This document shows positions 13,791 to 19,930 of a DNA stretch of 35,867 nt, one piece after another (the stretch's first letter is position 1; each line of letters opens with the position of its first letter). The DNA lies in NCBI GenBank assembly GCA_913063165.1, contig CAJXZL010000024.1, forward strand, positions 1-35,867, given 5' to 3'. This DNA comes from an uncultured Saccharospirillaceae bacterium (lineage in GTDB: Bacteria; Pseudomonadota; Gammaproteobacteria; Pseudomonadales; Natronospirillaceae). The translations under genes were made by a program, and so were the position numbers. Under the pieces are notes generated by a model. That model ran no database searches. It saw only the letters and a program-made list of their open reading frames with translations, and had not been told where the DNA came from.

Positions 13791-15425
13791 ATGAATATTA
13801 AACGCACCAACCCTAACTTTTTGAGCATCATACTCAGTGTCATTGCGTTTGTGGTCAGCGCCTATGTGCTTGCTTTCAGCTTAACAAACCAGATGTCGCT
13901 CCGACAAGAATTGATAGAAATCGAAATCGAGCATATTCAAGCGTCCTTTATAGAAGCCGCTAAAAGGGGTGGAATATTTTTATCAGCGCTCGACGGCCTA
14001 TTTGTCAACGGCCAATCGCCCGGTTTTAAAAATTTTGGTCGCGCCATTAATGCAGCAAACATGGGTAGTTACCCTGCCCTTAAAGCGATATATTATGTAC
14101 CCATTGTGGAACATGCTGACCGAGATGCGACCGAAGCTGCCCTCCAAGAGAGTTTTTCTAATTTTCAATTCACTGAACGAAGCCCGAACAATCGTGTGAC
14201 GCGTGCACACATACGCGACCAGTACTATCCGTTGGCTTATGTGGAGCCTTATTTAGACAATAGAGTTGATTCTGGTTTTGACCTTGGCACCATCCCTGAA
14301 ATAAAAGCGCTATTATTGAAGTCACAAGCGCTAGGGACCCCCATCGCGTCTAGCCCACAATTGCAGGGCCTAACTGGTATCTTACTGGTCCACCCTCTCT
14401 ATCACAAAGATTCAGATGGGACTACCAATGTCCCAGACGGTTGGTTGGTGGGCAGGCTTGAAGTGAAACTCTTGCTGAGGGAACACCTTTTCGCGGATTC
14501 AGATCTTTTACTGGCTATAGACGACATCACCAATCCTGCGAAACCGGTGACGTTGTTCACAAACGGGCTCGCCAGTGAACAGCATTATGATGACATCTCA
14601 CATTTCAAAGCCATCTCCACCACCCCAGGTCTGTTGCAGATACTAGCGATGGCAATCAACAGAACAGACCTACATTTCACAATGGATCCCGTTGAGATCT
14701 ATGGCAGAACCTATCAATTCCGCCCTTGGGTGCCCGTTGCAATCGCTTTTGAAGGCATCTGGATATTGCCAGTGATAGGGTTTCTTTCCTTGATGGCTGT
14801 GTTTGTCATACTGATCATTATTCTCAATTCATCGCAAAGAGCTGCCGCGATTGCTTTGGAGGCCGCCAAGCGTCAATCAGAACAATTGGATGAATCGAAC
14901 CAGCGCCTAAAGGAAATTCAGGTGACCGACAGCCTCACTGGCCTTTCAAACAAACGCCATACGACCGAGTTTCTAGATAAAGAATGGCGAAGATCCCTCA
15001 GAGTGAAGAGACCCTTTGCTGTAATTTTGCTCAATTTAGACCATTTCGGTGCCTATGTTGATCAGCACGGCCAATCAATGGGTGATGATGCAATGGTGGC
15101 GATGGCGAAGGCTTTGAGCGCCCATGTCGACTTTTCTACCGATATCATTGGGCGGTTTTCGAACAAAGAATTTATCGCCATACTTCCCAATGCCAGTTCC
15201 GTCAATCCAACCGCTGACAAGATGGTGGCTGCTGTCTCGGAATTGAATCTATTGTCGGTCGATGAAAAGGGCAACACAAAGCGCGTTACTATCAGCGCGA
15301 CAGGGGCGGCTTTTCAAGCCAGCGCCTCGAAAAATAGTGCGTCGGCGATTAAGCAGCTAATATCGGCCATGATATCGGTGAAGGTAGCAGGTGGAAACCG
15401 AGCCGTTGAGATCGAGACCGATTGA
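13791..15425 (+). CDS. CHASE-domain membrane protein with degenerate GGDEF domain
   Basis: A 544-residue protein. A first membrane segment (about residues 10-31) and a second (about 324-345) bracket a periplasmic CHASE sensory domain (about 60-205; ALDGLF, YPALKAIYYVPIV, YYPLAYVEP, SGFDLG). A short coiled coil leads to a GGDEF-type domain (from about 375) that begins canonically with VTDSLTGLSNKRH and keeps the metal-site Asp in LLNLDHFG (Asp417). The signature loop, however, reads RFSNKEF at residues 455-461: both glycines and the third acidic residue of GGDEF are replaced. No c-di-GMP inhibitory RxxD motif stands out at the usual place. It is probably not an active diguanylate cyclase and may act as a nucleotide-binding or protein-interaction receptor. 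There is no EAL domain. Confidence 0.88.
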   Translation: MNIKRTNPNFLSIILSVIAFVVSAYVLAFSLTNQMSLRQELIEIEIEHIQASFIEAAKRGGIFLSALDGLFVNGQSPGFKNFGRAINAANMGSYPALKAIYYVPIVEHADRDATEAALQESFSNFQFTERSPNNRVTRAHIRDQYYPLAYVEPYLDNRVDSGFDLGTIPEIKALLLKSQALGTPIASSPQLQGLTGILLVHPLYHKDSDGTTNVPDGWLVGRLEVKLLLREHLFADSDLLLAIDDITNPAKPVTLFTNGLASEQHYDDISHFKAISTTPGLLQILAMAINRTDLHFTMDPVEIYGRTYQFRPWVPVAIAFEGIWILPVIGFLSLMAVFVILIIILNSSQRAAAIALEAAKRQSEQLDESNQRLKEIQVTDSLTGLSNKRHTTEFLDKEWRRSLRVKRPFAVILLNLDHFGAYVDQHGQSMGDDAMVAMAKALSAHVDFSTDIIGRFSNKEFIAILPNASSVNPTADKMVAAVSELNLLSVDEKGNTKRVTISATGAAFQASASKNSASAIKQLISAMISVKVAGGNRAVEIETD

Positions 15426-16088: not shown

Positions 16089-17012
16089 TTATTCGGATAA
16101 CAACCGCTGGATTAATTGTTTCATTTCAGCTGGTGGCTTCACCGTAATGCCCGACTGGTCTTCATCTTTTAATGCCGACCACGCAAGCGTTCTAGACAGC
16201 CAAAATCTGGTAGCTGCCAGCACCCTCATGGTGGTGAAAGCCTGTTCTTCGTCTTCGGTAAAGCGGCGTTTTTCTTGGTAAGCTGCGACCATCACGGCCA
16301 CCTTGTCGGCATCAAAACCGTTATCGGCCACACACCAATCATTCACCATAATGGCGACATCGAGCAACAACCAATCATGGCAGGCAAAATACCAGTCGAT
16401 CAATCCCCGCAACTGATCGTGCTCAAAAAGAGCATTGTCATGAAACATATCAGCATGAATGATACCCTTGGGGAGCTTTAAGCTGGGCAGGGCGTCAAAA
16501 CGGGTCAAAAGCGCAGCATAAAGGTCTTGGTCACCCGCGTCCTGCCAATCGCTAAATGTGCGATGCTGGTGCAGCCAGTCTAGGCCAAACGCGTTACAGG
16601 GTGGCGCATCAAACTGTAAGGGAGCCACGTGCACATCGCCCAATGCAGCGGCCATTTGCTGGCAATGGTCAGTCGATGGCACGGAGATGTGATGACCGGG
16701 CACACGTTGAAACAACACCGCAGGTTTACCGGACAGTGATTTCAGCGCCAACCCATTGGCATCATGAATCGGTTCAGCCACCAAGCAGTGATGCGCTTTC
16801 AGCTGGTCTCCTAGACTTAAAAAAAACGGTAACTGCGCGGCGGTTAGGCGTTCGAACAGAGTCAAAACGAAGCGTCCGGTGTCAGTATCCACGAAATAAT
16901 TACTGTTATCGGTGCCGCCATCGATACCAACAAATTGCGTTAATTGTCCAATACGATATTCTGTAACAAAGCCATGCATCTGCGCGCGACTAATGGGAGT
17001 AAAAACACTCAT
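16089..17012 (-). CDS. thrB: Homoserine kinase, type II (aminoglycoside-phosphotransferase fold)
   Basis: The 307-residue enzyme phosphorylates homoserine in threonine synthesis. The start MSVFTPISRAQMHGF, followed by GIDGGTDNSNYFV, FVLTLFERL, LPFFLSLGDQL and GKPAVLFQRVPG, matches the Pseudomonas-type ThrB. The catalytic loop IHADMFHDNALF and the metal-binding Asp in GLIDWYFACHDWLLLDVAIM are intact. I chose the ATG at 17012 because it gives the family N-terminus; an adjacent ATG at 17015 is equally possible. A further upstream start at 17087 would overlap the divergent polA. The polA-thrB neighbourhood is also found in Pseudomonas. Confidence 0.95.
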   Translation of the reverse strand: MSVFTPISRAQMHGFVTEYRIGQLTQFVGIDGGTDNSNYFVDTDTGRFVLTLFERLTAAQLPFFLSLGDQLKAHHCLVAEPIHDANGLALKSLSGKPAVLFQRVPGHHISVPSTDHCQQMAAALGDVHVAPLQFDAPPCNAFGLDWLHQHRTFSDWQDAGDQDLYAALLTRFDALPSLKLPKGIIHADMFHDNALFEHDQLRGLIDWYFACHDWLLLDVAIMVNDWCVADNGFDADKVAVMVAAYQEKRRFTEDEEQAFTTMRVLAATRFWLSRTLAWSALKDEDQSGITVKPPAEMKQLIQRLLSE

Positions 17013-17041
17013 CATTTTTCCATTCTGTCCGTAGTTGCCAC

Positions 17042-17049
17042 AGTATAAC
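17042..17049. promoter_or_regulatory. Overlapping -10-like boxes in the 53-base polA-thrB gap
   Basis: The gap between the divergent starts contains TATAAC on the plus strand (17044-17049) and TATACT on the minus strand (17047-17042), overlapping each other. Neither has a good -35 hexamer at the expected distance. They are weak candidates for divergent promoters of polA and thrB. Confidence 0.25.
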
Positions 17050-17065
17050 CTGAACTGGGAATTCC

Positions 17066-19930
17066 ATGTCTTCATTTTCAGCACCACAAAAGCCCATTAT
17101 TTTAGTGGACGGATCTTCTTATTTGTTTCGCGCATTTCACGCCATGCCGCCGCTGACCAATTCTCAGGGACTGCCTACCGGCGCTATTAAAGGCGTGATC
17201 AATATGATGCGCAGCTTAGAGCAGCAATATGCTGGCAGCGAAATTTTTGTGGTCTTTGATGCCAAGGGTCCCACGTTCCGCCATGAACAATACGCCGAAT
17301 ACAAAGCCAACCGCCCTCCGATGCCCGATGAATTGCGGGTTCAGATTGCGCCTATCCATGACATCATTCGCGCCAAGGGCCACCCGCTAATCTGTATTGA
17401 AGGCGTAGAAGCCGATGATGTGATCGGCACGCTCGCAGCCCATGCCACCGAAAAGGGCATCGATTGTGTTATTTCGACCGGTGATAAAGACATGGCCCAA
17501 TTGGTGAACGGCCACATCACGCTGGTAAACACCATGACCAGCGAAAAGCTGGATGTGGATGGTGTCACGGCAAAGTATGGCTTTGGCCCAGAATTGATGA
17601 TCGACTATTTGGGGCTGATGGGCGACAAATCAGACAACATCCCCGGCGTGCCAGGCGTCGGACAGAAAACCGCTACCGCCCTGATTGCAGGACTCGGCAG
17701 CTTGGCAAACATTTATGACAATTTGGATAAGATCGCCACATTGGAATTTCGCGGTGCCAAGACCATGGCCGCCAAACTGGCCGAACACAAAGAGCAAGCC
17801 ATGCTGTCCTATCAGTTGGCGACCATCAAATGTGATGTGGCATTGGAAACACGTTTAGAAGATTTGGTACAAACAGCACCCGACAATGAAGCCTTGTTAC
17901 GCCTGTATACCGATCTTGAATTCCGCACCTGGATTAATGACCTCAACCTCAATGCTGGTGACAGCAGTTCGGCGACTTCGGACACCGCGCCGGCGAACGA
18001 CGCTGCGGCCCACTCTATTGATAGCGCCGGGGCTGCCTCAACGGGTAGCGATCTGCCACAGCCCACTGCCATTGATGGTCTTTCCGTGCCCTGCACAGTC
18101 ACCTGCGTGGCCAGTGAAGCCGGTCTTGAACAAGTCCTTGCAGAAATCGCGCAAGCAGGGCAATGCGCCATTAGCCTGATACGGGCACCAGGACATTATT
18201 TGCAGCAACGCCCTATGGCTATCGCCCTGGCCACACAGGTGGGCGCTGCCTATTACGTGCCTTTTCAATGCGATGACCCAGAGTCACCGCCGTTGCTAGA
18301 CGAGTATCTGTGTTTTCACAAACTGAAACCCATGCTCGAAAACTATGACATCACCAAGTTGGGGCATGACCTTAAAAGTCTACGGCACCAACTTGATCAC
18401 TACGGTATCGAACCCGCGCATTTTTATGATGATGTGTGGTTGAAGGCGTTTGTCTATAACAGTGCCTTAAGGCGAGCGTCCAGTCTGGATAAAAGCGCCG
18501 GTGCTTTGAGCATCGACAGTCTGGTGCGCCATTATTGTGACTGGCAGCCAACGACCTATGTTGATGTCGCAGGAACCCCTGGCACCAAACAAAAACTGCC
18601 GGCTGCAGTGCCGTTAGACCAAATGAGTCAGTGGGCTGGAGAGCAAGCAGATGCCGTCTTGCGCATCAACCGCTGGTTGACTGCCCACATGCCTGCCAAC
18701 AGCGATCTGGGGCGTGTTTACTCAGGTATTGAGCAACCCCTGATTCCGGTGTTACAACGTGTCGAACGCCGGGGTACTCTGCTAGATACGGATTATCTCA
18801 ATACCCTGAGCCAATCGTTTTCTGATCGTATCGCGGCGCTTGAGACCACGGTGTATGAAGAAGCAGGAGAGACTTTTAATCTGAGTTCTCCCAAGCAATT
18901 GGGCGTGATTCTTTTTGAAAAAATGGGTTTGCCTGTGTTGCAAAAGACGGCAACCGGACAACCCTCGACCAATGAGGCCGTGCTGAGTGAATTGGCCGCG
19001 ACTTACAGCCTGCCCAAGCATTTGCTCGAGCACCGCCACCTAAGCAAGTTGGTGGGCACCTATACCCAACCACTGCCCAAATTGGTCAATTCGGATACCG
19101 GTCGTGTACACACCAGCTACAACCAAGCAGGTGCCGCAACCGGTCGCTTTGCCTCCAACGACCCCAATCTACAAAACATCCCTATCCGTAGCGCTGAAGG
19201 CCGCGCCATTCGTCGGGCCTTTGTCGCAGCGCCCGGACGCAAAATTGTGGCAGCGGATTATTCCCAAATTGAACTGCGCATCATGACCCATTTGAGTCAA
19301 GACGCGACCCTAATCAAAGCCTTTAATGACGGCCAAGACATTCACCGTGCGACCGCCGCTGACATCATGGGTCTGGCACCAGAGGACGTCACCACTGAAC
19401 AACGCCGCAATGCCAAGGCCATTAACTTTGGCCTCATCTATGGCATGAGTGCCTTTGGTTTGGCGCAGCAATTGGATATATCACGAACCGAAGCGAGTGC
19501 CTATGTGGAAGCCTATTTTGAACGCTACCCTGGCGTGCGACGCTACATGGATGAAACCCGTGTACTGGCTGCAGAAAAGGGCTATGTCGAAACCCTTTTT
19601 GGTCGACGCCTTTATTTGCCCGACATCAACGCCGGCAAACAGATGTTACGCAAGGCCGCTGAGCGCACCGCGATTAACGCCCCCATGCAGGGCACCGCTG
19701 CCGATATCATCAAGCGCGCGATGGTCGATGTACAGTCTTGGCTAGACAGCAGCCACATGAACGCCCACATGATTATGCAGGTACATGATGAGCTGGTCTT
19801 TGAAGTACCGGAGGCTGAGCTTGAAGCCTTTACCACGGGCGTGGCCATGCGCATGCAGCATGCTGCTGATTTGGATGTCCCGTTAATTGTCGATATCGGT
19901 GTCGGTGACAACTGGGATGAAGCGCACTAA
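17066..19930 (+). CDS. polA: DNA polymerase I, with proofreading-exonuclease residues lost
   Basis: At 954 residues this is a full-length three-domain PolI. The 5' nuclease (about 1-295) is intact: ILVDGSSYLFRAFHAM, FDAKGPTFRHEQYAEYKANR, EGVEADDVIG, STGDKDMAQLV, GDKSDNIPGVPGVGQKTA. A linker rich in Ala, Ser, Asp and Thr (about 298-337) follows. In the 3'-5' exonuclease domain (about 340-545) every catalytic position differs from E. coli: D355 is Ser370 and E357 is Ile372 (in CAISLIRAPG), D424 is Leu439 (HDLKSL), Y497 is Trp523 and D501 is Gln527 (QWAGEQAD). The polymerase domain is intact: TGRFASNDPNLQNIPIR, motif A DYSQIELRIM, O-helix RRNAKAINFGLIYGMSAFG, motif C QVHDELVFEV. It should polymerise and remove RNA primers but not proofread. 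A strong terminator follows. Confidence 0.98.
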   Translation: MSSFSAPQKPIILVDGSSYLFRAFHAMPPLTNSQGLPTGAIKGVINMMRSLEQQYAGSEIFVVFDAKGPTFRHEQYAEYKANRPPMPDELRVQIAPIHDIIRAKGHPLICIEGVEADDVIGTLAAHATEKGIDCVISTGDKDMAQLVNGHITLVNTMTSEKLDVDGVTAKYGFGPELMIDYLGLMGDKSDNIPGVPGVGQKTATALIAGLGSLANIYDNLDKIATLEFRGAKTMAAKLAEHKEQAMLSYQLATIKCDVALETRLEDLVQTAPDNEALLRLYTDLEFRTWINDLNLNAGDSSSATSDTAPANDAAAHSIDSAGAASTGSDLPQPTAIDGLSVPCTVTCVASEAGLEQVLAEIAQAGQCAISLIRAPGHYLQQRPMAIALATQVGAAYYVPFQCDDPESPPLLDEYLCFHKLKPMLENYDITKLGHDLKSLRHQLDHYGIEPAHFYDDVWLKAFVYNSALRRASSLDKSAGALSIDSLVRHYCDWQPTTYVDVAGTPGTKQKLPAAVPLDQMSQWAGEQADAVLRINRWLTAHMPANSDLGRVYSGIEQPLIPVLQRVERRGTLLDTDYLNTLSQSFSDRIAALETTVYEEAGETFNLSSPKQLGVILFEKMGLPVLQKTATGQPSTNEAVLSELAATYSLPKHLLEHRHLSKLVGTYTQPLPKLVNSDTGRVHTSYNQAGAATGRFASNDPNLQNIPIRSAEGRAIRRAFVAAPGRKIVAADYSQIELRIMTHLSQDATLIKAFNDGQDIHRATAADIMGLAPEDVTTEQRRNAKAINFGLIYGMSAFGLAQQLDISRTEASAYVEAYFERYPGVRRYMDETRVLAAEKGYVETLFGRRLYLPDINAGKQMLRKAAERTAINAPMQGTAADIIKRAMVDVQSWLDSSHMNAHMIMQVHDELVFEVPEAELEAFTTGVAMRMQHAADLDVPLIVDIGVGDNWDEAH

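Follow-up and report, generated by a model that had tools for sequence, protein, structure and literature searches.

In a 2026 survey, about half of the bacterial DNA polymerase I (Pol I; PolA1) orthologues carried a substituted DEDDy site, distributed largely by phylum, and the authors suggested that inactivation may serve error-prone repair while leaving its coupling to Y-family polymerases open (PMC12926913). The same survey describes PolA2/APEX of Actinobacteria, in which an inactive 3'-5' exonuclease domain bears a clamp motif and the 5' nuclease is missing (PMC12926913). In another study, the purified Pol I of Helicobacter pylori, which is without D355, D424 and D501, showed zero mismatch excision, extended most mismatches, and partly bypassed abasic and thymine-glycol lesions (PMC3121766). 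Here we analyzed polA of an uncultured Saccharospirillaceae bacterium, located in a stretch of 35,867 nucleotides (hereafter the window; GenBank assembly GCA_913063165.1, contig CAJXZL010000024.1). Very probably, this gene encodes the sole ordinary Pol I of the bacterium, with a 3'-5' exonuclease domain that has been a pseudo-nuclease, most simply, since the common ancestor of the family. Judged from the sequences, the metal-binding residues are gone, the residues of the 5' nuclease and polymerase are intact, and constraint on the domain is relaxed yet present; we infer that window PolA works without proofreading. The finding is real but mostly expected, as the loss of Pol I proofreading residues is known, common, and repeated across bacteria, and the window family represents a clean, well-bounded case at the level of a lineage.

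The window protein scored above the cut-offs of the equivalog models for Pol I (PRK05755, 1087 bits against 720; TIGR00593, 921 bits against 600) and carried the flap endonuclease (FEN), exonuclease-fold, and family-A polymerase domains of PolA1 (TIGR00593) on one chain. As claimed in a preliminary description of this DNA, the 5' nuclease and polymerase motifs appear intact, with every catalytic position compared being identical to that of Escherichia coli. PF00476 was matched once in the window genome (2.55 Mb, 112 contigs), identifying PolA as its sole family-A polymerase, and PF01612 detected the exonuclease domain with a weak score (35.3 bits, cut-off 23.6). The presence of both PF02739 and PF01367 set the protein apart from PolA2/APEX, which lacks the 5' nuclease domain.

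An annotated PolA of E. coli (L144) was aligned together with 22 members of the family and with 56 order members whose proofreading site is intact. E. coli D355, E357, D424, Y497, and D501 aligned to S370, I372, L439, W523, and Q527 of the window protein, reproducing the five substitutions that the preliminary description had reported in the interval 18164-18655 (PolA residues 367-530). Where a proofreading DEDDy exonuclease has D, E, D, Y, and D, window PolA therefore reads S, I, L, W, and Q. A phmmer alignment to Klenow chain 1d8y agreed on L439, W523, and Q527; it begins at residue 379, leaving the first two sites uncovered. No acidic residue was found in window residues 366-375 (QCAISLIRAP), and thus the first two acids have not just been displaced by a few positions, an outcome that the preliminary description had allowed for. 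The replacement of Y497 by Trp is a mild substitution, and K422 and R455 were retained in 22/22 family members.

The fold itself is predicted to be kept despite the lost active site. An exonuclease-only AlphaFold model built from ten family sequences reached a predicted local distance difference test (pLDDT) score of 79.7 and a predicted template modeling (pTM) score of 0.80, and Foldseek placed Klenow at the top of its matches (E 1.2e-11). VIA-align against five Klenow-type E. coli entries gave Z values of 17.9-18.5 at 2.7-2.9 Å over 186-187 residues, the best being Z 18.5 at 2.8 Å over 186 residues. The next polymerase was that of phage G20c (Z 13.8). Modeling of the full-length protein gave a poor result (pLDDT 66.8, pTM 0.36), and the fold matches of that model serve only to name entries. 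With its predicted fold kept and its metal ligands substituted, the window protein would belong with the exonuclease-inactive Pol I of the Taq, Bst, and H. pylori type. Taq and Bst Pol I likewise contain a vestigial exonuclease without the DEDDy acids, and the D501 position, which is basic in both (R405 in Taq, K450 in Bst), is also basic in 20 of the 22 family members. In contrast to the window family, Taq and Bst represent losses in other phyla, and the exonuclease-only model was closer to Klenow than to Bst (best row Z 10.8).

Throughout, a row was counted as dead if its aligned site differed from DEDYD in any way; misalignment of single columns is possible in the rows that diverge most. 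In a search of 38 genomes near the window, the intact DEDDy set was missing from the window and from 21/21 relatives of the same family, while seven of the eight other order members read kept it, the exception being L026. A contig scan queried with the dead domains of 12 of the 22 family rows (alignment A2) recovered nine named loci, five from Saccharospirillum and four from Reinekea, one of which (L032) was 100% identical to family locus L009 over the exonuclease domain. Because these named loci were among the matches, and both genera are placed under Saccharospirillaceae in NCBI, we took the family to be Saccharospirillaceae. By simple parsimony, D355 and D501 were probably already missing from the family ancestor; the window, in which all five residues are changed, would then have moved further along. 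The preliminary description had called the loss settled, as in Taq, and this stands insofar as it is inherited and shared by all 22 family genomes searched, although E357, D424, and Y497 each persist in some members (Table 1). That the pattern instead reflects a misassembly, a pseudogene, or a polA copy of foreign origin is exceedingly improbable: the genome is indeed a 112-contig assembly, but the 954-residue frame is intact with its polymerase and FEN sites, polA is single copy, 21 other family genomes share the loss, named isolates occur among the scan loci, and a thrB homologue adjoins polA in 17/21 family relatives.

Table 1. Coordinates of polA, its domains and discussed residues, and the adjoining gene in the window.
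Feature	Coordinates	Strand	Basis or distribution
polA, DNA polymerase I, 954 aa	17066..19930	+	TIGR00593, PRK05755, PF00476
5' nuclease (FEN) domain, residues about 11-292	17096..17941	+	PF02739 + PF01367; 9/9 compared positions as in E. coli
3'-5' exonuclease domain, residues about 345-545; active site lost, fold predicted to be kept	18098..18700	+	PF01612
Ser370 at E. coli D355	18173..18175	+	D355 lost in 22/22 family members
Ile372 at E. coli E357	18179..18181	+	E357 lost in 20/22 family members, kept in 2
Asp435 at E. coli N420	18368..18370	+	Asp in 19/22 family members, 38/56 dead rows, 0/69 live rows
Leu439 at E. coli D424	18380..18382	+	D424 lost in 15/22 family members, kept in 7
10-residue insert, residues 472-481	18479..18508	+	22/22 family members; absent in E. 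coli and 56/56 live order members
Trp523 at E. coli Y497	18632..18634	+	Y497 changed in 15/22 family members, kept in 7
Gln527 at E. coli D501	18644..18646	+	D501 lost in 22/22: Arg in 20, Gln in 2 (window, L003)
Polymerase domain, residues 576-952	18791..19921	+	PF00476, 539 bits; 13/13 compared motif positions as in E. coli
Homoserine kinase (thrB type), divergent neighbour of polA	16089..17087	-	PRK05231, 305.9 bits against cut-off 271

Comparison of evolutionary distances revealed a relaxed constraint on the dead domain. Pairs from the same family were sorted by polymerase distance into six bins, the dead pairs coming mostly, though not solely, from the window family. The median exonuclease-to-polymerase distance ratios were 4.37, 4.63, 2.59, 3.35, 3.46, and 3.03 for dead pairs (n = 3, 3, 27, 76, 107, and 38) and 1.68, 1.89, 1.19, 1.29, 1.52, and 1.47 for live pairs (n = 11, 32, 33, 4, 7, and 6). 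Measured against the polymerase domain, the rate of dead exonuclease domains is thus about 2.1-2.6 times that of live ones. The corresponding FEN-to-polymerase ratios were 1.43, 1.86, 1.27, 1.03, 0.98, and 0.93 for dead pairs and 2.56, 1.24, 1.26, 1.17, 1.18, and 1.30 for live pairs. The raised exonuclease ratio, together with a FEN ratio that shows no consistent rise, suggests that the exonuclease domain is relaxed while the 5' nuclease has undergone no consistent change. Column conservation followed a similar pattern, the fraction of columns conserved at >= 80% being 0.20 in the family versus 0.46 in live order members for the exonuclease, 0.58 versus 0.55 for the polymerase domain, and 0.61 versus 0.36 for the 5' nuclease. 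Ratios of nonsynonymous to synonymous divergence (dN/dS; Nei-Gojobori method, NG86) were attempted on ten dead pairs, two of them saturated, and nine live pairs; three close family pairs gave 0.009/0.082, 0.070/1.603, and 0.112/1.031 for the dead domain, values that are rough and well below 1. As far as these data go, purifying selection still acts on the dead domain, in keeping with a structural role.

The accelerated evolution of the domain also speaks against an exonuclease kept alive by relocated acids, in which Asp435, Asp456, Glu526, or Asp529 would bind metal in a rebuilt site. Such a site could draw on Asp435, which is derived and present in 19/22 members, on Asp456 and Asp529, which are invariant in the 22-row alignment, and on Glu526, which occurs in ten rows. 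On the other side, D355 and D501 are lost in 22/22 members, in the window the strand that bore D355 and E357 is free of acids, and the Arg at position 501 in 20/22 members would repel metal. Furthermore, among the residues that contact single-stranded DNA in E. coli (L361, Q419, Y423, and F473), the first three were replaced in 22/22 family members and F473 in 21/22. A relocated active site is therefore highly unlikely, and a catalytically dead domain retained in the family remains the preferred reading.

To follow the loss beyond the family, a live-domain profile was run over 390 order genomes and 370 class genomes, and 30 genomes per level were fetched, mainly low and middling scorers, with four higher scorers of order family f39 included in the order set. 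The locus was found in 29/30 order picks (17 dead, 12 live) and 29/30 class picks (16 dead, 11 live, and 2 with the exonuclease start missing); the picks were non-random and give no frequency of loss. No match was obtained in G302 and G528 among the fetched order and class genomes. A further 40 high scorers were all live. Reading covered 7/16 low scorers of order family f44 and 7/8 of f39 in the order sample, and 2/6 order genomes (G006, G055) and 1/18 class genomes (G055) without a profile match. We then built a quick tree of 105 rows (56 dead) from the 5' nuclease and polymerase columns only, with Shimodaira-Hasegawa-like approximate likelihood ratio test (SH-aLRT) values as the only support and long rows flagged. 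Left out were L032-L040 (the named loci, taken as duplicates), L112 (live), L001-L002 (the window), and L071 and L072, whose exonuclease starts run off contig ends and whose D424, Y497, and D501 positions read D, Y, and D.

The 22 family rows formed one clade (SH-aLRT 100) nested in a starred set of 42 rows, 19 of them live. On this tree, the live/dead label required 13 changes, 7 of which were forced by starred branches. The hypothesis that the window family and the dead families f6 and f44 share a single loss was rejected (approximately unbiased test, p-AU 0.0014, on a 48-row subset with eight family rows thinned out and the group chosen after the first tree had been seen), which makes the two losses separate. 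Accordingly, at least two losses within the order are independent, one in the window family and one in f6 with f44. The preliminary description considered such a loss unusual in a gammaproteobacterium; the many dead rows and forced changes on our tree do not support this as worded, and neither does the high share of substituted orthologues in the 2026 survey (PMC12926913). Its suggestion that the loss may define a lineage was borne out in that the loss marks the family, but the loss alone is not diagnostic given the separate losses in Gammaproteobacteria. Some rows showed patterns of their own. L066 (G055, order family f35) was a lone dead exonuclease (SLLLR) beside L050, L063, L064, and L067, the other members of that family read, which keep DEDYD, and probably represents a separate loss. 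L048 (G159, order family f20) was partly changed (VEEYD) with a local insert, while the f20 member L116 was live; it is possibly a loss in progress. Order family f39 mixed genera with live and dead Pol I (L047, L051, L053-L055, L057, L059, L060, L062, L068, and L069), its dead rows sitting in two places on the best tree, not all on starred branches. This family would be a good set for comparing mutation patterns.

Two features marked the family better than the loss itself, namely the 10-residue insert and His377, the latter present in 22/22 family members versus 0/56 live order members. Within the insert, L474 occurred in 22/22 and H477 in 20/22 family members, whereas the 56 live order members had neither. 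Such conserved additions, together with dN/dS well under 1, could be explained by a new binding role of the dead domain, for a partner protein, the clamp, or DNA. We regard this as unlikely, since only 20% of the family's exonuclease columns reach 80% conservation, compared with 46% for live members across the whole order, the window copy has neither H477 nor F478, and the insert is modeled at low confidence (residues 474-479 under 50 in the full-length model; block mean 59 in the exonuclease-only model). In addition, a loose form of the QxxLF clamp motif (Q..[LMI][FLY], residues 290-548) was absent from the window protein and present in 3/22 family members.

A second pattern concerned the former metal pocket. 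Arg, Lys, or Gln occupied the 501 position in 40/56 dead rows, and its combination with Asp at position 420 among dead rows (32/6/8/10, Fisher p 0.004) gives a suggestion only of a link between the two. In the window family, D435 may pair with Q/R527. A broader scheme would make the loss of Pol I proofreading a repeated route, in which D501 changes to Arg, Lys, or Gln and N420 to Asp, the metals give way to a protein pair that locks the pocket, and the Saccharospirillaceae domain then gains the insert and His377 for a new binding role; taken as a whole, this scheme is improbable. The term Arg405 of Taq was not met in a literature text search.

Under the preferred reading of a Pol I with a pseudo-nuclease domain, the enzyme would remove primers and flaps, mature Okazaki fragments, and fill repair gaps without editing, and it could extend mismatched or lesion-blocked ends. 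The dead domain would act as a structural spacer between the flap nuclease and the polymerase, and Arg or Gln at D501 may form, with Asp at N420, a charge or hydrogen-bond pair that occupies the former metal pocket. Replicative proofreading probably remains with the DnaQ subunit, because DnaQ scored above its cut-off in 22/22 family genomes (296.3 bits against 222.7 for the window genome copy). The precedent of H. pylori Pol I indicates what to expect of window PolA: it is likewise a bona fide Pol I with its exonuclease fold judged to be kept and D355, D424, and D501 missing (PMC3121766). Unlike window PolA, which is known from sequence, the H. pylori enzyme was assayed, with active polymerase and 5' nuclease (PMC3121766). 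H. pylori is moreover described there as having no translesion polymerases (PMC3121766), whereas PF00817 matched the window genome twice, once strongly and once weakly. The window protein also resembles the exonuclease-inactive PolA1 class of the survey in being a Pol I orthologue with a substituted DEDDy site (PMC12926913), and differs in showing a family-level loss amid live Gammaproteobacteria. A literature text search on Saccharospirillum DNA polymerase I gave one paper, which concerns the placental microbiome, and one on a vestigial exonuclease in Gammaproteobacteria gave none. Comparable families of one gammaproteobacterial order with and without the Pol I proofreading site provide a natural experiment, in which live and dead families can be contrasted for their mutation spectra, lagging-strand error bias, and lesion bypass.

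The gene neighbourhood favours vertical descent of polA, without proving it. Besides the family relatives mentioned above, a thrB homologue adjoined polA in one live order member (L027) and in the dead L026. Several points weigh against the overall interpretation. The neighbourhood was not seen in 4/21 family relatives (L015, L021, L023, and L029) or in 6/7 live order loci from the 38-genome search, in both cases within short flanks. Branches are shared among the pairs used for the rate ratios, and of the six dead bins, two contain three pairs each; dS was near or beyond saturation in most pairs (most > 0.8), which makes dN/dS rough. When kinship was respected, the 420/501 association was reduced to 1-5 independent pairs that agree (mean 3.6) and 0 that disagree, with a median p of 0.125. 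Finally, no biochemistry of window PolA was found in the literature.

The thrB-type neighbour scored slightly below the TIGR00938 cut-off (246.5 against 255.9). Its called frame overlaps the start of polA by 22 bases on the opposite strand (window 17012-17087), and its true start is probably further in, because homoserine kinase models begin at residue 26. We also considered other polymerases. The exonuclease loss was not associated with an absence of Y-family polymerases, with PF00817 matches in 27/27 genomes tested. Family-B polymerase (Pol II, PF00136) had no match in the window genome; it was present in 6/10 family genomes, 6/13 further order genomes counted as live (11 of them read; G028 and G035 judged by their profile scores alone), and 2/4 of the dead f6/f44 genomes, a spread in which no link between exonuclease loss and Pol II loss was visible. 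Elsewhere in the window, positions 13791-15425 encode a protein of 544 aa in which TIGR00254 (86 bits) marks a GGDEF diguanylate cyclase domain.
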